Source: Halobacteria archaeon HArc-gm2 (GTDB lineage Archaea; Halobacteriota; Halobacteria; Halobacteriales; Haloarculaceae). From it: DNA of 64,000 nucleotides. The stretch covers positions 124,001 through 188,000 of the forward strand of contig JAOPKE010000005.1 of NCBI GenBank assembly GCA_025517465.1, given 5' to 3'. The notes under the pieces were generated by a model. It was not told where the DNA came from and did no database searches. It saw nothing but the letters and a program-made list of their open reading frames with translations. Shown piece by piece: positions 23,902 through 54,196 of this stretch; the first letter of the stretch is position 1, and every line of letters starts with the position of its first letter. Position numbers and translations under genes: made by a program.

Positions 23902-24225
23902 TCAGTTGTACCCCCGCCAGCGGTGGCCGCACTCCTTGCACTTGAAGAAGCGCGTCGGCGGTTCGTCGGCCGAACCCGTTTGCTTGATCTCGTACCAGGC
24001 CTCGCCGTGGCCGCAGTCGTCGCAGGTGACGTCCTTGGCCGTCGGCTTCCCCTCGAAGTTGGCGCCCTCCTCCGTCTCGATGAGTTCGTCGCCGGACTGG
24101 GCCTCGGTGCTGACGAACGCGTCGGCCTTCTCCTGATCCTTGGCGACCTCCGCGCCGCAGGACTTGCAGACCATCACGTCGCCGTCCGCGTGCATCATCG
24201 ATCCGCAGTCGTCGCAGAACTGCAT
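23902..24225 (-). CDS. tfs: Transcription factor S (TFS, TFIIS-like)
   Basis: A 107-residue archaeal TFS. The N-terminal zinc ribbon is FCDDCGSMM...CKSCG. The C-terminal ribbon CDDCGHGEAWY...FKCKECGHRWR carries most of the RNA-cleavage domain. The usual acidic hairpin (DE) is represented by QTGSADEPPTRFF. TFS stimulates transcript cleavage by backtracked RNA polymerase. Its 5' end is the attachment site of the 30 kb element, and its 3' end is duplicated by the HNH insert, yet the frame is intact. Its native promoter now lies near 54226. Confidence 0.95.
   Translation of the reverse strand: MQFCDDCGSMMHADGDVMVCKSCGAEVAKDQEKADAFVSTEAQSGDELIETEEGANFEGKPTAKDVTCDDCGHGEAWYEIKQTGSADEPPTRFFKCKECGHRWRGYN
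24205..24225. repeat. Left attachment repeat (tfs side)
   Basis: The 21 bases are exactly the first codons of tfs on the reverse strand (MQFCDDC). They recur at 54176-54196. The core is bounded by inverted GCAGT/ACTGC arms. Sequence differs immediately outside on both sides, as expected for att sites. Confidence 0.85.
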
Positions 24226-24274: not shown

Positions 24275-24895
24275 ATGCCTCCTGACCCGGAGAATGCGCC
24301 AACCGATTCTGATGATGTTAGCATGACTACTGTATCTGCTCAAGTGGCCGAGAGTAAAAAAGCCCGCTGGGAGCAAGCAGTTGAGGAATCTGATGAATAC
24401 GATAGTGTTTCCAACCTCATCCGAATCTCTGTCACTCGTGAACTCGGTGACGAATACGTGTATCAGAAGAAGTCACTAGTGGGTCAGGGGAACATAGACT
24501 TCGATACTGACGAGCTTCTCAACGAACTAGACAAACGGTTCGAAGACGTGAATGACCGCATCGACCGTCTTGCCGCTGAGAAATCTGACCGAGTAGAGCG
24601 GAACGCTAGCCTGACGAATGAAATCATTGACCACGTACCAACGTTGCCGACGATGGATGTCGCCCGCGACTGGATAGACCAGCGAACGGACCACGAAGGG
24701 GAGCTGTTAAGCGAACACATCGAACCCGACGACGAAGGTCGGGCAATCGCATCGTCGATTCGCCTTGCGAACTATTTGGACGTGGATAACCACGATGTTC
24801 GTCAAGCGATGTATAACATAGAGAAGGGGAGCAGTCGCTTCAAAACCATCAGAGAACGCGGTGAGACGTGGATGTTCGCTATGGGGGGCGACTAA
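24275..24895 (+). CDS. RHH-like regulator with coiled coil
   Basis: A 206-residue protein (or ~190 if the ATG at 24323 is used). Residues ~17-60 (TVSAQVAESKKARWEQAVEE...VSNLIRISVTREL) resemble a ribbon-helix-helix DNA-binding motif. A charged helix around residues 85-110 suggests dimerisation. The C-terminus (RLANYLDVDNHDVRQAMYNIEK) looks like another helical DNA-binding element. It lies immediately upstream of the integrase with a 4-base gap, so it may control integration or excision. Confidence 0.65.
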   Translation: MPPDPENAPTDSDDVSMTTVSAQVAESKKARWEQAVEESDEYDSVSNLIRISVTRELGDEYVYQKKSLVGQGNIDFDTDELLNELDKRFEDVNDRIDRLAAEKSDRVERNASLTNEIIDHVPTLPTMDVARDWIDQRTDHEGELLSEHIEPDDEGRAIASSIRLANYLDVDNHDVRQAMYNIEKGSSRFKTIRERGETWMFAMGGD

Positions 24896-24899
24896 TCTA

Positions 24900-26003
24900 A
24901 TGAGCGAAAAAACGCAGGACCCCATCACTCGCAAAATCGATTATTCGGGTCAGGACTGGACACTAGCTCGCGCTCACAAGATGTGGGTCGATGACTCCAT
25001 CAGCGAACAGGACGATAATGACGGGAATGCTCACGCGATGCGGTATAATATCCCGAACCGATTCCGTGCGTGGTTAGCAGGAGATGGTCTCGTTGCAGAG
25101 GGTCGTGACGTAGACTATGAGTACCCAACAGAAGCAGACTACCACCTCCCAATAGAGGATGCAGAAGAACTCACGGTCAATCATCACAAGGGTTGGTACC
25201 GGGCTCTACACGAGCACGGGTGGGCTTCAACGACAATCAACTCGTACCACACTCTCCTTTCAATGTGGGCAAAGTGGATGACGGAGAAAACTATCCTTGA
25301 GGAGGACTTTCACGAGAATCTCCGAAAATACGGTGACCCAGACGACCTCCCCGGTATCGATTCTACGAAGGGTTTCAAGGAGGAACAGTTCAAGGACGAG
25401 ATTCAATACGCATCTCTTGAAGAAGTTGATGAGATGTGTAAGTACGTTACCTCTCCGAAAATTCAGACGGAATTAGCCATTCGTCTGATGTTCCAGACAG
25501 GGGTTAGGGAGGTGGAGCTACGGAACATCGAACTAACTGACATCGACCGGAAGAAACGCAAAATCAAAATCATCACTGCGAAGAACGGGAAGCTTCGGGA
25601 CGTTTGGTATCACCCTTCATTAGACATGCTCATGGACCGATATTTAGATGTCGAACGAGACGAACTGAACTACTCTGACTCTCCGTATCTCTTCCCCACG
25701 AAATACTCTCCACAGATGGCTCGCAATACACCGAACCAGAACGTTACCGAATGTGCAGAGAAGGCAGGCATTCAAGACTACACTGAGCCTGATGCATCGG
25801 GAAAGCGTCGGCGTCGAATCACTGCACACGCACTACGCCACGGATTCGGTGTCCAGTGTGCGAAAAACGGGATGCATATCAAGTCGATACAAGAACTGCT
25901 TGGCCACCAGCAAATAGAGCAGACTAAAAAGTACATTCAGTTCGCTACTAAAGACGTTAAGAACCAATACGACCACTACGGCCCGATGGAATCGAAGTTG
26001 TAG
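24900..26003 (+). CDS. int: Tyrosine recombinase (integrase)
   Basis: A 367-residue tyrosine recombinase. A SAM-like core-binding domain (~85-145) precedes the catalytic domain. All catalytic residues are visible: Arg203 (TGVREVEL), Lys228 (TAKNGK), His310/Arg313 (HALRHGFG), His336 (LLGHQQ) and Tyr345 (TKKYIQF). It is next to the left attachment repeat, so it very probably integrates this element into tfs. It begins with ATG at 24900, four bases after the preceding stop. Confidence 0.93.
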   Translation: MSEKTQDPITRKIDYSGQDWTLARAHKMWVDDSISEQDDNDGNAHAMRYNIPNRFRAWLAGDGLVAEGRDVDYEYPTEADYHLPIEDAEELTVNHHKGWYRALHEHGWASTTINSYHTLLSMWAKWMTEKTILEEDFHENLRKYGDPDDLPGIDSTKGFKEEQFKDEIQYASLEEVDEMCKYVTSPKIQTELAIRLMFQTGVREVELRNIELTDIDRKKRKIKIITAKNGKLRDVWYHPSLDMLMDRYLDVERDELNYSDSPYLFPTKYSPQMARNTPNQNVTECAEKAGIQDYTEPDASGKRRRRITAHALRHGFGVQCAKNGMHIKSIQELLGHQQIEQTKKYIQFATKDVKNQYDHYGPMESKL

Positions 26004-27581: not shown

Positions 27582-27743
27582 ATGAAGCAGATAGGAATTG
27601 CACTAATCGCGTTCGTCCTGTTCGACCACGCCCTTGAGGGATTGATTGAGACGTTTCTCGGTCAAGACCCGTCAGTGGCGTCTTTGGTCATCATCGCGAT
27701 TGGCGCGGTCCTAGTACTCCGTTCAAATCAGACCAATGAGTAA
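27582..27743 (+). CDS. 53-residue membrane microprotein
   Basis: Starts three bases after the preceding stop codon and overlaps the spike start as ATGAGTAA. It has two hydrophobic stretches (MKQIGIALIAFVLF and SVASLVIIAIGAVLVL). The tight coupling on both sides supports real translation. It is likely a small envelope-associated protein of the virion module. Confidence 0.6.
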   Translation: MKQIGIALIAFVLFDHALEGLIETFLGQDPSVASLVIIAIGAVLVLRSNQTNE

Positions 27744-29976
27744 CACCAATACCAAGCGGCAGGTCATCACGGTCCTCGCAGTCATCGCTATGGTTCTCAT
27801 CGCTGGCGTCCCCATCATCGGGGTCGTTGCGGGAGAACTGGGCGACGAAGGCTGTGGAGACGAATTTCAGGCAGCCGCAGAACGAAACATCAATCCTGAC
27901 GATGGGTTTGTCGGCAAAGTCGTAGGAAGCTATGGGGCTTCCATCGATTCTGTCGTCCAGAACGTCATCGACCCATGTTGGGCAGAACAGTCCGGGGAAG
28001 ACCCGAACAAATCAATCAACGACACGTACCAGTCCGCGCTGGAACGGTACGACGTAGTTGAGCAGAAGTCTCGCATCACTGATTCTATCGCGGTAGATGC
28101 GGAGACCTCCAAGCAGCCCGTCCGAGAGTCTGCAACCTCGTCGATGGGTACGTACTACTACAACGATACGGCCAACGCAACCGAGGAAGGATTCCTCCAA
28201 GCGGGTACGGACTCCATCGATAATGACTACCGCTTCCGAGAGGCAGGGGCAGTCCTCAACTACAACAACGACCTCCGATACGTTCAGAACGGAGTCTACG
28301 AGGAACTTGCCGCTGAGAATGCGACGGAACATCTCCACGTCTACGTCAATGGCACGGAGGTGACTACGCCGTCGAACTCGGCAGACATCACCTTCAGCGT
28401 CCCCGACAATGAGAGTGACACTCGCAACGGCTCTGATGGCGTTGCGTACACTCTCGCGAATAGTGACACTCTGAGAGCGGGTACCATCACAGTCAACGGG
28501 ACTGCGTACACGTTCGAAGACAATCTGGCCGTCACGATGACCGACCCTGCAGGCGAACTTCAGGAAGTCCCGATTGTCGGACGTGACCTTGGTACGGAAT
28601 ATGGTTCAACTGCTTACACTCCTGAGGTTAGTCCATCAGAGGCAGACATTGTAGCAGCTACTGATGGGTCAGGAGATTACGAATCAATTCACACCGCAAT
28701 GGGTGCGGCTACTGATGGTCAAACCATCTATGTGGAATCTGGTGATTATTCTGCTCCGGGTACATTCACTGAAACTTCTGCTAACATCACAGTGATTGCC
28801 GAACCGGGTGCAGTCTACAACAGTGAGCAGTATTCAGCAATCCGACCCAGTGCGAACCTGACAATCAAAGGTCTGACCATTGACGGACCTACTCACGTGT
28901 TTGACATCCAATCTGCGAGTTCTGTCGTGGAATTGGATTACGTGACTGTCCAGAACGTTTCTACTGGTCTTGTGGACACAGGAAACAGCGTCTCTGGATA
29001 TACTGGTACACTGAACAACACCCTCCTCCTTAGTGGGACAAACAAGCTCGGTGAATTTGGGTCATCGGCTGTTGAAGGTGAGGAATTCCACACCCGGCAG
29101 TTCGACTCCTATACCCAGAATTACATCGACCAGCAACTCACTGACCGGGCGGAGATTCTGAACGCCTTCGGGACGACTTCGGAAGGTTTTGTCTCCGACC
29201 TGTGGGCACGTCACCAAGCTGGTGATGTCGGTCCTGACTACTACGGTGGCTGGGAGAAGCTGGCGCAGGACGGACTCTCTGAGGACGACCTCGGTACCCG
29301 GGTTTGGTTGGATATCCAGTACGACCGGATGGGTTACTCGTCGCTGAACGAGACTCGTGCGACCACGGACGTTGTGGTTGAATCAGGTTCGACAGTCTAC
29401 GGTAACGCTCAGGAAGGTAACGCAGTGACCCTCTCGTCCGATAAGACCTACAGCGGTCACATCTGGACGAAGCACCCGCCTGCATCAGGTGAGTGGTCCA
29501 CGAACACCACCTATAGCACCGACAACCTCGGTGGCCCGCTCTTCGTGACCTACTACGGTCAGGAAACGAAGATTGAGGATGGTAACCTGACGACTGAAGT
29601 CGTCTCCAAGACGGTCGCCGTCACGGGGACCTTCAGCTTCGATTCCATCACTACGCAGGGTGGTGAGTCCATCACGACTGCTTCGCACGACACGGACAAC
29701 TACCGTGCGTCCACTGACCCATACAACGCATCATCCGTAGTCGATGATATGGCGTCACAGGACGACCGGATGGAAAACTACCGTGACGCAGCCGCCGAGA
29801 ACGACGATGGCAGCGGTGGTGGTGGTGCTGGAGATGGCTGTGGTATCAGCTTCTTCGGCGTCTGTTCGGGCATCTCGTCGATGCAGATTAGCCTCCTCGG
29901 AGGATTCATCGTCCTCATCGTTGCAGGTTACGTGTTCCGACCGCTGCTCGGGACGCTCCAGAACCTGACAGAATAG
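27736..29976 (+). CDS. VP4-like spike protein with a beta-helix insert
   Basis: A 746-residue surface protein. An N-terminal hydrophobic signal segment (residues ~8-32) is followed by an extracellular part with many Asn-x-Ser/Thr sequons and a C-terminal anchor (residues ~713-740) after a Gly-rich linker and GCGISFFGVC. This is the organisation of pleolipovirus spikes, which mediate receptor binding and membrane fusion. Residues ~302-435 (VAATDGSGDYESIHTAMGAA...) look like a pectin-lyase-type right-handed beta-helix. This stretch (about 28639-29041) uses AT-richer codons than the flanks, suggesting acquisition. The protein is longer than the ~500-residue spikes described. Confidence 0.8.
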   Translation: MSNTNTKRQVITVLAVIAMVLIAGVPIIGVVAGELGDEGCGDEFQAAAERNINPDDGFVGKVVGSYGASIDSVVQNVIDPCWAEQSGEDPNKSINDTYQSALERYDVVEQKSRITDSIAVDAETSKQPVRESATSSMGTYYYNDTANATEEGFLQAGTDSIDNDYRFREAGAVLNYNNDLRYVQNGVYEELAAENATEHLHVYVNGTEVTTPSNSADITFSVPDNESDTRNGSDGVAYTLANSDTLRAGTITVNGTAYTFEDNLAVTMTDPAGELQEVPIVGRDLGTEYGSTAYTPEVSPSEADIVAATDGSGDYESIHTAMGAATDGQTIYVESGDYSAPGTFTETSANITVIAEPGAVYNSEQYSAIRPSANLTIKGLTIDGPTHVFDIQSASSVVELDYVTVQNVSTGLVDTGNSVSGYTGTLNNTLLLSGTNKLGEFGSSAVEGEEFHTRQFDSYTQNYIDQQLTDRAEILNAFGTTSEGFVSDLWARHQAGDVGPDYYGGWEKLAQDGLSEDDLGTRVWLDIQYDRMGYSSLNETRATTDVVVESGSTVYGNAQEGNAVTLSSDKTYSGHIWTKHPPASGEWSTNTTYSTDNLGGPLFVTYYGQETKIEDGNLTTEVVSKTVAVTGTFSFDSITTQGGESITTASHDTDNYRASTDPYNASSVVDDMASQDDRMENYRDAAAENDDGSGGGGAGDGCGISFFGVCSGISSMQISLLGGFIVLIVAGYVFRPLLGTLQNLTE

Positions 29977-31312: not shown

Positions 31313-32121
31313 AGGAACGTCTACCCAATCCCGATATCTCCAAGACCAACATCGACCTGCCAGATATCACCATCGGCAAGGTCGCGATTGGAGCTGTCAT
31401 CGTGTTGTTCGCCGCAGACCACTTTGGCGTCATCAACGTGGGGCAGAATCTCCCCGGGTGGATGAACTGGAGCCTTATCCAGACGTTCGCAGTCATCTAC
31501 ATCGCTGTACGTCTGTTCATCGCCCCACAGGTGACGAAGTGGTTGAAGAACCTGTTCCGTCCAGATATGCAGTGGATTCAATCGCTTGATGCAAAAGGAA
31601 TTGAGACAGCATGGCGACTTACGCACCCGGAGACGATTGTCCACGCTGATACTGGTCGTGTGGAAACCCGTGAAGACCCGAAAACTGGAGAGACAATCGC
31701 CACTGTTCGCGATATCCTTGGATGGGATGAAGAGAAGCCCGACGTTCTGCACGTCGAAGGTGTGAACGAATGGGATGATATCCCTTCGGATGACCAGATT
31801 ATTGCGGACAAGACGCAGTACGCCCAGTATCGCGACATTGAAGAAAAGGCACGCGAGGGGCACAAGATTCGCCAAGGTCTCCCTGCGTTCAAGACGAAGC
31901 TGGAGGGTCTTCTGACCAAGAAGTTCGCCGTGATGTACGAACAGTCCACCTCTGGTCAAGGTGGGTACATCGACACGCTCCTTGGCAAGTCTGTAGAGGA
32001 ATACAAGCAGTTGGAGGGTGAGCCTGACAACTTCGTCCGTGAGTACGCCAATCAAGAAATGGTGGATGATGAGGAGGTGAATGACCTCTCAGACGACGAT
32101 GAAGACGGTGATTCAGAATGA
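31309..32121 (+). CDS. Membrane-bound virion-module protein (ORF7-like)
   Basis: A 270-residue protein. Two hydrophobic segments at residues ~22-43 and ~54-74 are followed by a long charged cytoplasmic domain. It is translationally coupled at both ends: ATGA overlap with the preceding gene and with the ATPase. It ends in -DGDSE, whose codons carry the GGTGAT ribosome binding site of the ATPase gene. Its position corresponds to the ORF7-type membrane protein next to the ATPase in pleolipoviruses. Confidence 0.65.
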   Translation: MKERLPNPDISKTNIDLPDITIGKVAIGAVIVLFAADHFGVINVGQNLPGWMNWSLIQTFAVIYIAVRLFIAPQVTKWLKNLFRPDMQWIQSLDAKGIETAWRLTHPETIVHADTGRVETREDPKTGETIATVRDILGWDEEKPDVLHVEGVNEWDDIPSDDQIIADKTQYAQYRDIEEKAREGHKIRQGLPAFKTKLEGLLTKKFAVMYEQSTSGQGGYIDTLLGKSVEEYKQLEGEPDNFVREYANQEMVDDEEVNDLSDDDEDGDSE

Positions 32122-33326
32122 CGGACTACTACACCCCTGCACTGCTTCGACACCGACTGGACGACTATGCGAAGCAATTAGGAGGCGCTCCGACTCCCGA
32201 AGCTCTCGGTCTGGAAGACGAGTATGCTATGGAGGCAGTCATCCAGTTGATTCGCCACTACCCAGTTGAACATCCAGATATGCCTGATGACCCGCGAGAG
32301 TGTGCCCTCTTCAAGGACATCATCGGTGAGAGTGGTACAGCATCGATTCAGACTGCACTTCGGAACGGCCAGCTAACCGAACTCAATTACTGGAAAGGAA
32401 TCACGGACAACCGCATCGAAGCCACGGGATACGAGAAACTCGTTGGAGAACTCATCCCTGCAGCCCAGCAGATGCTCATCAAGGGTGCGAAAGGGAGTGG
32501 TAAATCTACGAAAGCTGCCGACCTCGTATCCAAGCTCCACTCCGAGTTCGATGGGAACCTGAAGGTGATTACGAACATCAAGGGACTGGAAGAGCATCCT
32601 GACGTGGAGTTCGCGGAGAAAATGAGTGACTACCTCCTGTTCGCACGTCGCCCGGGGGAGAAGGTTGCACTCATCGACGAGGCATCCACCGTGATGGCAG
32701 GATACGCTTCACTCGGCGGGTCTGATGTCATCGACCAGTTCGGGCGGGCTATCAACGCTCTGCGGAAAGGAGAAGGTGGCTCTACACGCTTGATTATCAT
32801 CGGGCACCGTAACGACGCAGACATCGCTCCGATGCTTCGACGACAGTCTGACGTTGTGATGTATGCCGATGGGAAGGTGAAGGAAGACCTCATCGACAAA
32901 GCCACTGTCTACGGGTCGTGGGACGAATTCAAGAAAGAACGTAGTTCCTACAAGGTATACGGTCTCCAAGACATCAATGACGACTCTCCGTGGAGCTTCG
33001 AATCCAACTACTTCGCCACGTTCGAATTCGACCTTGACGACCCAGAGAATCAGATTCGGAGAGGGAAGATTGTGGACAACTGGGAGTCCTACCAAGAGAG
33101 TCCACCAAGTGGCGAATCTGGAGAGGAGACGGCTCAAGACACCCAATGGGACACTGACAAGGTGAACGCCGTGGTCGATTACCTGAATAGTGACGAAGGT
33201 CTTCGGCCAATCGCTGAACGTCACGGTACCGATAAGACCACTCTTGGACGCTGGAAAGACGAAATGGTGGAAGCCAACGAGGTCGTCCGGGGCGAGTTGG
33301 ACGGCGGTGAAGAAGACGAAGAATAA
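32118..33326 (+). CDS. VP8-like P-loop ATPase with C-terminal HTH
   Basis: A 402-residue ATPase. Walker A is GAKGSGKST at residues 123-131, Walker B is VALIDEA near 184-189, and a later IIIGHRNDAD strand resembles sensor motifs. The C-terminus (DYLNSDEGLRPIAERHGTDKTTLGRWKDEM is split here as residues ~355-385) forms a helix-turn-helix. Pleolipoviruses encode one conserved P-loop ATPase at the end of the virion module. This is its counterpart, with the HTH suggesting DNA contact. Role in packaging or assembly is inferred. Confidence 0.82.
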   Translation: MTDYYTPALLRHRLDDYAKQLGGAPTPEALGLEDEYAMEAVIQLIRHYPVEHPDMPDDPRECALFKDIIGESGTASIQTALRNGQLTELNYWKGITDNRIEATGYEKLVGELIPAAQQMLIKGAKGSGKSTKAADLVSKLHSEFDGNLKVITNIKGLEEHPDVEFAEKMSDYLLFARRPGEKVALIDEASTVMAGYASLGGSDVIDQFGRAINALRKGEGGSTRLIIIGHRNDADIAPMLRRQSDVVMYADGKVKEDLIDKATVYGSWDEFKKERSSYKVYGLQDINDDSPWSFESNYFATFEFDLDDPENQIRRGKIVDNWESYQESPPSGESGEETAQDTQWDTDKVNAVVDYLNSDEGLRPIAERHGTDKTTLGRWKDEMVEANEVVRGELDGGEEDEE

Positions 33327-36442: not shown

Positions 36443-36937
36443 CTACGTAGTTCGAAGACGGTCTGTTCGCGGTTCGTAGACTTCCCCTTTCTGCTTCAAC
36501 TGTAGAAGCTCGTCTTTGGCATCATCCATCGACATACCGAGGTATTCCGCAAGATAGAGAACTTTATCCTCAGGAGCGCCCTCGTCGTGCTGGCTCTCCA
36601 GCTTACTAATCAAGCCCTTCAGGTTCTGAATTCTCTCCCGCTGGTCGTCGAACATCGAATCATCGATATCGTATTCCTCACGGATGTCCTTGATGACGAT
36701 TTCCGACCCATCCACGGATACGAAGAATGGTGGGTCCAGACGCTTGCTAATACGACCTGTTATCTCTTCGACCGGGAGGCTGGCACTGAACAACCCTTCA
36801 TCAAGGTCGTAGCTGACGTTGGCTGCGCTTCGTTCGATGGCATCATTGACAATCTCGTTGATTTCGTCGGCCATCGAATCCAAGGTCTCGTCAACTTCGG
36901 TGAGTTGCTCGTGGACTTCTTCGAACTGTTCCGCCAT
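36443..36937 (-). CDS. Coiled-coil protein with C-terminal winged helix
   Basis: A 164-residue protein. Residues 1-~40 form a charged coiled coil (EQFEEVHEQLTEVDETLDSM). A central beta region follows. The last ~60 residues (YLAEYLGMSMDDAKDELLQLKQKG) resemble an MCM-type winged helix. A strong ribosome binding site (AAGGTGATGGGAGG) precedes the ATG on the minus strand. It may be a DNA-binding regulator or replication accessory. Confidence 0.6.
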   Translation of the reverse strand: MAEQFEEVHEQLTEVDETLDSMADEINEIVNDAIERSAANVSYDLDEGLFSASLPVEEITGRISKRLDPPFFVSVDGSEIVIKDIREEYDIDDSMFDDQRERIQNLKGLISKLESQHDEGAPEDKVLYLAEYLGMSMDDAKDELLQLKQKGEVYEPRTDRLRTT

Positions 36938-37118
36938 TGTCCTCCCATCACCTTGGGACACAGTGTCTACGTGCAAGGGTAGAGTCATAAATCGACTAGG
37001 TGAAGAACCGTTTCTTCTCCCCTGATGAAGCAGTTCACCCGATATCCTAACTACTGACGACAGATTCCAATATGTAGTTAGGACAATACTTTTGCCCATT
37101 ACTTACGTAATCTGATAT

Positions 37119-42404: not shown

Positions 42405-43202
42405 ATGGTTCAAACACCAGACGAGGATGAGGCGCACGATGTGTTCATTTCCTACTCACACAACGATTCGAAAGACGTTGTAGGATTACTTGTGGAAGAA
42501 TTGCAAGCGTACGGGCTGGATGTGTGGTATGACGATATTTCGATGTCCATTGGAGATAGCCTCCGGAAAGAGATGGACATAGGCCTTCGAAATTCACGCT
42601 ACGGCGTCATCGTCTGTTCTGAAGGCTACTTCGAAGGAACATCTGAATGGGAATTCAACGGTCTCGTAAAGAAGCACATCGACGAAGAGAACGTGATTCT
42701 ACCAGTTCTCCACGGTGTTGGGCACGATGATATCCTTGAAGAAAGCCATAGCTTGGCTGACCTGAAGTACGAAACAATTGATGAGGATAACATTGAGTCT
42801 GTTGCTACGAGTATATACAGCACAGTAACAGGCGAGGATGGTGGGGATGGTAATCTGAGAGAGGACGGCGAATCTTTGATGGCTTCCATCGATATCCGAT
42901 TCCAAGGAAACTTCACACCCGATATCGGGGACGGGATAACGATTACCTCGTGGAGAAACCATCACGCACCCCGGTTCGAAGAATTGGAAGCAGCCGAAAT
43001 CCGAGATGAGAATGGTGTTGAGTACTCCAGCAGGTCTGGAGGAACAATAATGAAAGTCGCAAGGATAGATGATGAACCACTGGAAGGCGTTGTCTCAGAC
43101 ATCAAGACCGTCCAGTCCAATAAAATTGAGTTCACTGTTCGAATTAGACAGAGCAGACTTGATGAACTCTCTGACGACCCTTCTGACTACGAAATGTTGT
43201 GA
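42405..43202 (+). CDS. TIR-domain protein
   Basis: A 265-residue protein. The TIR domain spans residues ~10-140: HDVFISYSHND (box 1), the GLDVWYDD strand, ISMSIGDSLRKEMD and the catalytic-region EWEFNGLVKK with Glu83 aligning to the NADase glutamate, then VILPVLHGV. The C-terminal ~110 residues are a beta-rich domain that may act as sensor. TIR proteins in prokaryotic defence cleave NAD+ when a partner or ligand is sensed. A TATA-like AAATTTATTC lies ~30 bases upstream. It is alone here, with no CARF or STING partner seen. Confidence 0.85.
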   Translation: MVQTPDEDEAHDVFISYSHNDSKDVVGLLVEELQAYGLDVWYDDISMSIGDSLRKEMDIGLRNSRYGVIVCSEGYFEGTSEWEFNGLVKKHIDEENVILPVLHGVGHDDILEESHSLADLKYETIDEDNIESVATSIYSTVTGEDGGDGNLREDGESLMASIDIRFQGNFTPDIGDGITITSWRNHHAPRFEELEAAEIRDENGVEYSSRSGGTIMKVARIDDEPLEGVVSDIKTVQSNKIEFTVRIRQSRLDELSDDPSDYEML

Positions 43203-44402: not shown

Positions 44403-44598
44403 CGACTCCGAGATATACGACCAATGGCGCAGGGGTGAGATTACACGTGAGGAAGCTGAAACCCGCGTCGAAGACAATTGGGAGGTCGTCAGTCAGATTG
44501 GCTCAGTCCGATGGGCGAGGTCGGGAGAAGATAGCGAGAGAGTAAGCGACGAGCTGGACGGGCTGTTCTCCAGTGACGAAGGTGGTGATAATGAGTAA
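44395..44598 (+). CDS. Hypothetical acidic small protein
   Basis: A 67-residue protein (begins MSNDSEIYDQWRRGEITREE), resembling the SHOCT-like short helical motif (YDQWRRGEITREEAE). It ends -GGDNE with GGTGGTGATAATGAG overlapping the recombinase start. Probably a small cofactor or regulator of the recombinase by position. Confidence 0.5.
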   Translation: MSNDSEIYDQWRRGEITREEAETRVEDNWEVVSQIGSVRWARSGEDSERVSDELDGLFSSDEGGDNE

Positions 44599-45250
44599 GA
44601 CAGAATCCAAGACTACGAACGAACCAGTGGTGCATCGATACATCAACATCCGAGAGGTAGACCCATTGCGTGACGCGGCGCACGACCGCCCGCTTCGATA
44701 CGACTCTCTCGGAATCCGTCTCCGTGACGAAACCTTCGTCACCCTTGCCATTGACCTCGGGCTCCGTGCGGAGGAACTGCGAGGACTCAAGCGGTCGATG
44801 TTCCGATTGAAGGATGGAGAGGTGACCATCCCCGGGCACGTGCAGAAGGACTACCCAAGGGAAGATATCACACCCGGTGCAGTCACGATGCGACTTGACC
44901 CGTACGGCCACTTCGGAACAGTTCGTCTGCTCCGCTCGTACTTCCAAACCGAATGGTATCAAGACCGAGACAGCGAGTACGTGTTCCCCAGCAGGCAGTC
45001 CGACCAGATGTCCACGGAGTCGATGCGGAACGTCGTCGAAGACCTCGCCGTCCACGCCGACGTTACCGTTCACCGTTCAGACGGGGAACCTGCCGACCCG
45101 TCAGAACTGCATCCGCATGCGTTCCGTCACAGTCTCGCGAACTACATGCTCGCGGACAACGACACGCGCTTGGTCGAGGTGAGGAATCGGCTTCGACATC
45201 GAAGCATCACGACGACAGAACGAGTCTACGACCACTTCCAGCGGCGTTAG
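44591..45250 (+). CDS. Second, shortened tyrosine recombinase
   Basis: A 219-residue protein that consists almost only of the catalytic domain. Visible residues are Arg59 (LGLRAEELRGL), His176/Arg179 (HAFRHSL), His203 (LRHRSIT) and Tyr213 (TERVYDHF). The usual N-terminal core-binding domain is missing. It is the last gene of a coupled cluster of micro-genes. It may resolve multimers, invert a segment or be a second integration system in a composite element. No att-like repeats were found beside it. Confidence 0.85.
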   Translation: MSKTESKTTNEPVVHRYINIREVDPLRDAAHDRPLRYDSLGIRLRDETFVTLAIDLGLRAEELRGLKRSMFRLKDGEVTIPGHVQKDYPREDITPGAVTMRLDPYGHFGTVRLLRSYFQTEWYQDRDSEYVFPSRQSDQMSTESMRNVVEDLAVHADVTVHRSDGEPADPSELHPHAFRHSLANYMLADNDTRLVEVRNRLRHRSITTTERVYDHFQRR

Positions 45251-48877: not shown

Positions 48878-49222
48878 ATGTTGGAACAAGCAAAACCGAC
48901 ATGGCGTATCGATGGCGAGAACGAGCGGAAGATATTGAATCAAATCGTCAATAAGAACCGTATCAAGTGGTCGCAACTATCAGACTACTTCGGGACCGTG
49001 CCAAGTAAGCTGATGTCCCGCGTCGAAGCTGTCAACAAGAAGTTGATGGCTGGCGTAGAGTTCGCGAACGAGCGAGACGATTTGCCCCGGGAAGAGATGG
49101 ACGAAGTTGAGTGGCAAACGTATGTCCTCGCAGCAGGTTACCGAGGTATCATGGAGGATGCGTTCGAAGAACGCTACTCCGACATCGTTGAAGAATACGG
49201 AGAAATCTACGGTGATGACTGA
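48878..49222 (+). CDS. Hypothetical protein preceding the RHH coiled-coil gene
   Basis: A 114-residue protein (begins MLEQAKPTWRIDGENER). Helical with a HTH-like middle (RIKWSQLSDYFGTVPSKL). It ends -EIYGDD, where GGTGATGACTGATG couples it to the next start. Position beside the candidate origin suggests a replication or partition role, which is inference. Confidence 0.55.
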   Translation: MLEQAKPTWRIDGENERKILNQIVNKNRIKWSQLSDYFGTVPSKLMSRVEAVNKKLMAGVEFANERDDLPREEMDEVEWQTYVLAAGYRGIMEDAFEERYSDIVEEYGEIYGDD

Positions 49223-49821
49223 TGGGGGGAACCGGGAACTTCTACGCGGACGACGAGTTGCTGGAGAAGCTGGACGAGTTGCCCAACAAGTCTGAGTTCA
49301 TCAGGAACGCAGTTGGTGCAGCACTCTCTGCGGAAAGCGAATCCGAACGTCGGCTGTCTGAGATTGACGATGATATCGATGACATTGATGAGAAGATACG
49401 AGGTCTCAAACAGTCCCGCTCGGAACTCGTGAAAGAACGAGAAGAGATTGAGGCCGTGGTTGGCGCAGTGGATAGTTCGGATAGTGGAGAACCAGAACGA
49501 GTGCAGCACGTCTTCGATGTCGTCGAAGAGATGCTGTCGAAGCCTACCCACGTGTGGGAAGGTCACCTGAACAAGAACCTGAATGACAACCTCGCAGAGA
49601 GTATCACAGAAGATGTCACGATGCACCAAATCGACAATCCCGATGCGAACGCAGTGTCCGGGGAGTTTGTGAAAGAGGACCTCCGTGACGAGGGGTTCGA
49701 CCCAGAAGAGGTCATCACAGCCGACCACAACGAAGTGTACGCACTCTCGGACGAAGCGTTCGAAATCTTCGACGGATTGACGAGCCGAGAACGAGCCGAG
49801 ATTGAGGAACTGCTGAACTGA
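49222..49821 (+). CDS. RHH/coiled-coil protein beside the putative origin
   Basis: A 199-residue protein. Residues ~8-35 (ADDELLEKLDELPNKSEFIR) resemble a ribbon-helix-helix DNA-binding motif. Residues ~40-80 form a coiled coil (LSEIDDDIDDIDEKIRGLK). The C-terminal ~100 residues are a separate acidic domain. RHH plus coiled coil is common in plasmid partition and replication control. It directly precedes the iteron region. Confidence 0.65.
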   Translation: MGGTGNFYADDELLEKLDELPNKSEFIRNAVGAALSAESESERRLSEIDDDIDDIDEKIRGLKQSRSELVKEREEIEAVVGAVDSSDSGEPERVQHVFDVVEEMLSKPTHVWEGHLNKNLNDNLAESITEDVTMHQIDNPDANAVSGEFVKEDLRDEGFDPEEVITADHNEVYALSDEAFEIFDGLTSRERAEIEELLN

Positions 49822-49858
49822 AGCCATTTTTCTCCTTCCTTATTTAACGTTTAGGTAA

Positions 49859-50103
49859 TTTGTAGACTCTAAGAAGTGTACCTCTACACAAACACCATAT
49901 AATATAATAAACTAAATCTATTATAATAGTATAGTATAGTATAGTAGAAGTAGAAATTGTAGAGAGACACTTCTCTGAATCTACAAAAAACATCTCTATA
50001 TAAATCCGTCTGTAGACAGGTCGAAAACCACTCAATTAGAATAGAAAATTTCTATTATAATATCGTGTATGTGTAGGTACACACACTTCTCAGAGTCTAC
50101 AAA
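49859..50103. other. Candidate replication origin with three 21-base iterons
   Basis: TTTGTAGACTCTAAGAAGTG (plus one base) at 49859-49879 is repeated in reverse at 49967-49987 and 50083-50103 with 1-3 mismatches. The spacer is extremely AT-rich, with TATAG repeats (49928-49944) and palindromes AGAAAATTTCT and GTGTAGGTACAC. It fills the 344-base gap between the RHH gene and the wHTH gene. Inverted iterons around an AT-rich unwinding region are typical of plasmid and viral origins. Confidence 0.6.
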
Positions 50104-50165
50104 TCTTGACTAACGCCCCGAATCTTTGTTCCACGAACGCAGAGAGGTAGAACACCACCGCGTCA

Positions 50166-50600
50166 TTAATTCTCTGAATCGAACATCAAGCTCGCGAGAC
50201 GGTCTCGGAACTTCTCTAGCGATTTCAATCGGTTGTGGGTCTGTGAGGTCTGATTCTCAAGCATATCGATACGCTGCTCCAACCGTTCGACCTTCTCTGT
50301 AACTTCATTCTCCAGTACCCATTCCCGAGCTTCGGGGCTGATTCCTTCTTCCACGATGGCCATCCCATCATCGGTCAGTGTGGCTTCCTTTGGGTCTCGG
50401 CGGCTGGTTCCACTGTTGGCATACCCGGTGTCGATGTAGCCCATCTGGTCCAACTTCTCAAACCGATAGTTTCGTTCCTTCTGGGACAATCCAGTTCGGT
50501 CGCGAATCTCGGTTGTCTTGGCAGTGCCTCCACTCTCGTATACGGCTCTGAGAAACGCCTCGGACTTCACGTCCAGATTCGTTCCAACTTTAATGTTCAT
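50166..50600 (-). CDS. Winged-helix regulator with coiled coil
   Basis: A 144-residue protein. The N-terminal ~75 residues form a wHTH (FLRAVYESGGTAKTTEIRDR, then LSQKERNYRFEKLDQMGYI and a TLTDDG wing). The last ~45 residues are a coiled coil (VEKVERLEQRIDMLENQTS). It resembles haloarchaeal virus and plasmid repressors. Its 3' end faces the iteron region. It may bind one of the repeats described here. Confidence 0.7.
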   Translation of the reverse strand: MNIKVGTNLDVKSEAFLRAVYESGGTAKTTEIRDRTGLSQKERNYRFEKLDQMGYIDTGYANSGTSRRDPKEATLTDDGMAIVEEGISPEAREWVLENEVTEKVERLEQRIDMLENQTSQTHNRLKSLEKFRDRLASLMFDSEN

Positions 50601-54175: not shown

Positions 54176-54196
54176 GCAGTCGTCGCAGAACTGCAT
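54176..54196. repeat. Right attachment repeat
   Basis: Exact 21-base duplicate of the tfs start region (24205-24225). The sequence right of it (TGATGAGAGGGATTAG...) is the original upstream region of tfs. Left of it the element ends in AT-rich sequence. Confidence 0.85.

Follow-up and report, generated by a model that had tools for sequence, protein, structure and literature searches.

Genes for a protein that combines an N-terminal ribbon-helix-helix (RHH) domain with a coiled coil (RHH-CC) are repeatedly associated with AT-rich repeat clusters in haloarchaea, the repeats being unlike one another from locus to locus. One such cluster occupies positions 49822–50165 of a 64,000-nt stretch of contig JAOPKE010000005.1 of Halobacteria archaeon HArc-gm2 (the window), within a ~30-kb provirus. 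This segment is probably either the place where copying of the excised virus starts or a site for its inheritance at cell division. With a little less than even confidence, based on comparison of sequences, we interpret it as a maintenance locus that acts in cis and is bound by RHH-CC, its most likely role being that of replication origin for the excised circle. How pleolipoviruses, and haloarchaeal elements related to them, replicate when they have no recognised Rep is an open question in the literature (PMC10599561 on the Epsilonpleolipovirus HFPV-1; PMC13107129).

The provirus (24,205–54,196) is bounded by two identical 21-bp att repeats, GCAGTCGTCGCAGAACTGCAT, at 24205–24225 and 54176–54196. 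The left copy comprises the first seven codons of a transcription factor S (TFS) gene (23902–24225; TFIIS zinc ribbon), and integration at this 5′-end keeps the reading frame of the host gene and makes its upstream region element-borne. In genome G207, the TFS gene has the element at its 3′-end. A tyrosine integrase (24861–26003, plus strand) is accompanied by an accessory protein gene (24275–24895, plus strand), with related genes found beside the integrases of the G002, G037 and G141 elements. A spike protein (27736–29976, plus strand; phrog_2231, 7e-14, and phrog_24543) and, downstream of it, a packaging-type ATPase (32118–33326, plus strand; phrog_1979, 6e-33) belong to PHROGs shared with HRPV-1 VP4 and HRPV-3 VP2, and with HRPV-1 VP8 and HRPV-3 ORF5, respectively, and the element is therefore described as a pleolipovirus-type provirus. 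Genomes of Pleolipoviridae are about 7–17 kb, and we refrain from assigning membership because the ~30.0 kb between the att repeats exceeds this range. Other genes of the element encode a TIR-domain protein (42405–43202; PF13676, 2e-17), possibly a defence gene; a second, short tyrosine recombinase (225 aa; 44573–45250) in mid-element, with close relatives (53–77% identity) in the pleolipovirus-type elements of G235, G002 and G205 and also in G162; and a protein with a coiled coil and a winged helix (36443–37000) resembling the C-terminal winged helix of archaeal MCM (PF21120, 7e-4, below the cut-off).

The GC content of the 344-bp segment is 34%, compared with ~50% for the element and ~68% for the chromosome. 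It contains three copies of the 21-mer TTTGTAGAYTCWRAGAAGTGT, for which zero chance matches are expected: iteron 1 (TTTGTAGACTCTAAGAAGTGT) at 49859–49879 on the plus strand, and iterons 2 (TTTGTAGATTCAGAGAAGTGT) and 3 (TTTGTAGACTCTGAGAAGTGT) at 49967–49987 and 50083–50103 on the minus strand, with centre-to-centre spacings of 108 and 116 bases. When up to three mismatches were allowed, the consensus matched only these three copies in the 64-kb window; it had no match in 100 dinucleotide-preserving shuffles, and the whole genome yielded one extra match, with three mismatches, and no other close copy. Iterons 1 and 2 extend to a dyad of ~32 bp with the form TTTGTAGA-N16-TCTACA(C/A)(A/T), which runs to ~49890 for iteron 1 (TTTGTAGA-N16-TCTACACA) and begins at ~49956 for iteron 2 (TTTGTAGA-N16-TCTACAAT). 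The right arm of iteron 3 is partial, and a GTGTA-GG-TACAC palindrome is found in its place. The outer two iterons are taken in by a longer imperfect inverted repeat (49858–49927 and 50035–50104; 70 nt, 70% complementary), and the putative cis-acting AT-rich region that it delimits (49858–50104) contains TATAATATAATA and (TAGTA)n tracts, as well as TAGTATAGTATAGTATAGTAG at about 49926–49946. Folded as single-stranded DNA, the segment is far more stable than its shuffles (z −6.7; 0 of 200 as good). The original prediction of three 21-base iterons in these positions and orientations, at a near-even spacing of ~110 bases and around an AT-rich core with TATAG repeats and palindromes, is borne out.

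A DNA search of 145 related genomes with the segment gave no match, nor did an exact search for the repeat in viral contigs. GC skew follows gene direction here and was for that reason left out of the analysis. The two neighbouring genes (49222–49821, plus strand; 50166–50600, minus strand) converge on the segment, which is downstream of both and is therefore not the promoter of either. The segment combines a repeated specific sequence with an adjoining AT-rich region, as in iteron-type origins, and it equally combines a repeat cluster with an adjoining gene for a DNA-binding protein, as in partition loci.

The plus-strand neighbour encodes RHH-CC (199 aa), which consists of an N-terminal RHH, a coiled coil and a short conserved C-terminal motif. 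Its first 40 residues match PF01402 with an E-value of 0.003, just below the cut-off, and the same N-terminal pattern is present in its homologs. Its start overlaps the stop codon of a gene for a winged helix-turn-helix (wHTH)-like protein (114 aa; 48878–49222, plus strand), and a small wHTH gene is likewise found upstream of RHH-CC in G037 and in Natrialba, there with one gene between. The minus-strand neighbour encodes a protein of 144 aa with a putative wHTH and a coiled coil, for which the domain match is weaker (HTH_24, E 0.026). Its family is widespread (74 of 391 genomes have homologs), and in G264 one such gene lies 3 kb from a 66% identical copy of the TIR protein. Both neighbours had been put forward as possible partners of the repeats. 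This holds for the RHH gene, which is the best candidate because its distant homologs also adjoin repeat clusters, and we consider it likely, judging from these associations, that RHH-CC binds the repeats. The convergent wHTH gene was rejected as a partner: the repeat of the window is absent from its 25 best homologous loci, and the comparison points to no consistent link between this family and repeats.

RHH-CC is proposed here as a family of distant homologs, characterised by an RHH N-terminus, a coiled coil, a common C-terminal motif and an adjoining AT-rich repeat region. AlphaFold models of three sequences had a mean pLDDT of 62, too low for the C-terminal part to be classed or for a fold search, and a PDB profile search returned coiled-coil matches only. 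The window protein as a direct query found no relative in plasmids, phages or viral contigs; RHH-profile matches in viral contigs proved to be bacterial RHH proteins and were dropped, and a broad RHH profile run against 391 genomes gave mostly coiled-coil noise. Gene calls were ORF-based, and the searches covered part of the known haloarchaeal genomes. Within this scope, six candidate members were recognised, in the window, G037, Natrialba swarupiae, Halopiger djelfimassiliensis, G207 and G025, the last two matching profiles from whose building sets they were absent (7.8e-12 for G207; 4e-7, full-length, for G025). The homologs are 21–32% identical, and the homology is weak, resting on profile scores and common layout, not on structure.

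Repeat clusters are found beside most of these genes. A 4.5-kb Natrialba contig (NZ_VTAW01000059.1) carries three exact copies of GAATCGTAATAATCATAC in AT-rich DNA directly 3′ of the RHH-CC gene, and G037, found by the RHH-CC profile, carries three copies of TGTATTACTTAATAC at 27% GC in the same position. In Halopiger, three copies of AAAGTATTAATCATACTC lie 5′ of the gene. In the G207 locus, found by sequence, a dyad (GGTATTACAATTACATA...TATGATGTAATACC) follows the gene on its 3′ side; the repeat score is modest, amounting to a partial cluster. In the G025 locus, also found by sequence, the convergent space 3′ of the gene is very AT-rich, with no repeat cluster at the threshold used. An AT-rich repeat region beside the RHH-CC gene is therefore clear in four of the six loci, partial in G207 and absent at threshold in G025. 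In five loci (the window, Natrialba, G037, G207 and G025), the AT-rich segment follows RHH-CC immediately on the 3′ side, where the genes converge or seem to, which makes a promoter role unlikely.

When 37 haloarchaeal regions were scanned for three-copy repeats, very few clusters in AT-rich DNA emerged. Besides that of the window, these were the clusters of Natrialba and Halopiger and the CCCCCACCC boxes of a chromosomal origin next to orc1/cdc6 (the gene was recognised by its translation), which served as a useful positive control. In a ranking of 648 AT-rich windows from 1.3 Mb by their repeat content, the first five places all went to RHH-CC flanks, from the window analysed here (rank 2), Natrialba and G037. 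The Halopiger flank, at 43% GC just above the cut, had a repeat score of 39, compared with 0.3 in shuffles. Because repeats were the reason for choosing the window and also what drew attention to Halopiger, only Natrialba and G037 count as unbiased cases.

The repeat sequences vary from locus to locus, as do the RHH N-termini. Natrialba and Halopiger have the most similar N-termini (K/E-RIS-S-DPEV) and share a GTATGATTATTA-like motif; this parallel, drawn from few cases, suggests direct recognition of the repeats. Next to the repeats of Natrialba, Halopiger and G207 are CTA/TAG trinucleotide tracts (L065 2030–2080, L101 8200–8250 and L177 19280–19310), which recall DnaA-trio-like tracts; the window has (TAGTA)n only. 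RHH-CC elements also encode a small protein that bears the motif DVK(T/S)R or EVKFR and has no Pfam match (L175 8763–9371, L065 4048–4467 and L101 11244–11801), which, from its sequence, looks like a PD-(D/E)XK nuclease.

As originally noted, no known Rep is evident in the element: none was recognised when its larger proteins were scanned against Pfam and PHROG, and the only genes adjacent to the repeat segment are those for RHH-CC and wHTH proteins. An unrecognised Rep may be present among its small ORFs. Rep-Arvir (PF25227), a family of archaeal initiators described only recently, drives SNJ2 replication (PMC13107129) and was ruled out as the initiator of this element, as the only two matches in the genome are both on contig C11, outside it. 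The RHH-CC loci of the window, G037 and Halopiger lie within pleolipovirus-type elements with spike and ATPase genes and no Rep-Arvir nearby. The G037 element is ~16 kb long, in Halopiger the spike and RHH-CC genes are 5.7 kb apart, and neither genome has a Rep-Arvir match. The Halopiger repeats are about 2.3 kb from an AAA-type protein gene, whose product might be the real Rep of that element. In eight related elements, Rep-Arvir is encoded within about 10 kb of the ATPase, and RHH-CC is found in none of them. RHH-CC thus occurs in 3 of ~12 Rep-less elements compared with 0 of 8 Rep-bearing ones, a difference in the expected direction that is not significant (one-sided Fisher p about 0.19), and several other Rep-less relatives have neither RHH-CC nor Rep.

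An origin at this segment could work as follows. Dimers of RHH-CC would bind the inverted repeats of ~21–34 bp, and the coiled coil would bring the bound repeats together. Once they are together, the AT-rich core would open more easily, or the long inverted repeat would extrude more easily, which would allow host replication proteins to be loaded. We propose that, with these proteins loaded via RHH-CC, the element could replicate without a recognisable Rep. We know of no RHH protein that acts as a replication initiator. The further claim that RHH-CC is the sequence-specific initiator of an origin in pleolipovirus-type proviruses without a known Rep, an archaeal replicon class not described before, is put forward as possible but, on balance, doubtful. 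A defined cassette of ~1.3–1.7 kb (wHTH, RHH-CC and repeats) occurs in several elements and, if it works, would add a replicon or partition module to those known in archaea and possibly provide a shuttle-vector tool.

The strongest rival to an origin is a centromere-like partition site, because proteins with RHH domains and coiled coils are typical of partition. RHH-CC would then be a motor-less, single-protein segregation factor, its RHH domain binding the repeats and its coiled coil pairing or tethering copies of the element. Among the classic centromere binders are RHH proteins (ParR, ParG and omega), and single-protein partition systems with a helix-turn-helix and a coiled coil include pSK1 Par, KfrA and RocS (cf. 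PMC11500499). Spaced, inverted repeat clusters beside the gene fit partition nearly as well as, or equally to, an origin, and no ParA/ParM/TubZ-type NTPase was recognised among the element proteins scanned (Pfam, PHROG), none being needed by a motor-less system. However, partition would leave the element without any replication system, no RHH-CC relative was found among 72,556 plasmids, where partition modules abound, and the AT-rich core and 3′ placement are closer to known archaeal cis replication elements. We regard partition as a less probable explanation than an origin.

A role in transcription is unlikely. In this case, the repeats would be an operator cluster or downstream regulatory element through which RHH-CC or a wHTH repressor controls transcription, for instance by terminating the convergent genes or by acting on an RNA that is not annotated. 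Related proviruses in G002 (G002:C1:960072–960179; L107 5172–5279) and G205 (G205:C1:1985360–1985467) carry three copies of TGAGTTTTGGAGTCT, two of them inverted, and these clusters are probably operators, given their position in a divergent promoter. In G207, a near copy of the left half of the dyad is also present once in the RHH-CC promoter. The window repeats are instead downstream of both neighbours, with no further copy at any window promoter, and a structured AT-rich region of 250 bp exceeds what a terminator needs.

Less probable still is a different DNA transaction, in which the segment would be recognised by the second tyrosine recombinase, control excision or serve to package the viral genome. 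Both att sites are far away, and homologs of the second recombinase occur in elements without such a cluster, the repeats instead tracking RHH-CC genes; set against this, the recombinase is present, with a 77% identical counterpart in the Halopiger element, and a viral genome must be packaged, although we know of no packaging signals described for pleolipoviruses. That the segment is a degenerate remnant with no present function is scarcely credible: integrated elements do decay, and this one has many unknown small genes, but the 21-bp cores are near-identical in both orientations, and the flanking ORFs and att repeats are intact.

The segment can be compared with several known systems. Like haloarchaeal oriC regions with origin recognition boxes, it is AT-rich and has two repeats in one orientation and one in the other, whereas it has neither an Orc1/Cdc6 gene nor the G-string ORB motif. 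With iteron-type plasmid origins (RepE/RepA), it shares spaced specific repeats, an AT-rich region and an adjoining gene for the presumed binding protein. Its repeats are, however, inverted and ~110 bp apart, and in place of a Rep_3-like initiator with a winged-helix pair there is an RHH protein. Single-protein partition systems (pSK1 Par, KfrA and RocS; StbA) similarly combine a DNA-binding domain and a coiled coil with an adjoining repeat cluster and no NTPase, but the DNA-binding domain of RHH-CC is an RHH, and the protein was found here only in integrated haloarchaeal elements.

The minimal replicon of pRN1 (orf56/orf904) resembles the window locus in having a gene for a small DNA-binding regulator in an operon followed by a structured noncoding 3′ cis element, while no orf904-like primase-polymerase-helicase was recognised in the window element. 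The pRN1 operon contains orf56 as a copy-control repressor gene, and no AT-rich iteron origin could be found in pRN1 by its authors (PMC4234260). The orf56 product is an RHH protein. The Betapleolipovirus SNJ2 shares with the window element a pleolipovirus-type provirus and a noncoding cis element directly 3′ of the operon of a DNA-binding protein, with an inverted repeat and stem-loop potential. Unlike SNJ2, the window element has no Rep-Arvir or other recognised nicking enzyme, the linked protein being RHH plus coiled coil, and it has three spaced 21-bp repeats and a long AT-rich core where SNJ2 has one inverted repeat and a conserved nick hairpin. For both SNJ2 (PMC13107129) and pRN1 (PMC4234260), the essential cis element for replication has been mapped to a stem-loop on the 3′ side of the replication operon, and by this analogy the placement of the putative origin in the window matches the two mapped archaeal examples.
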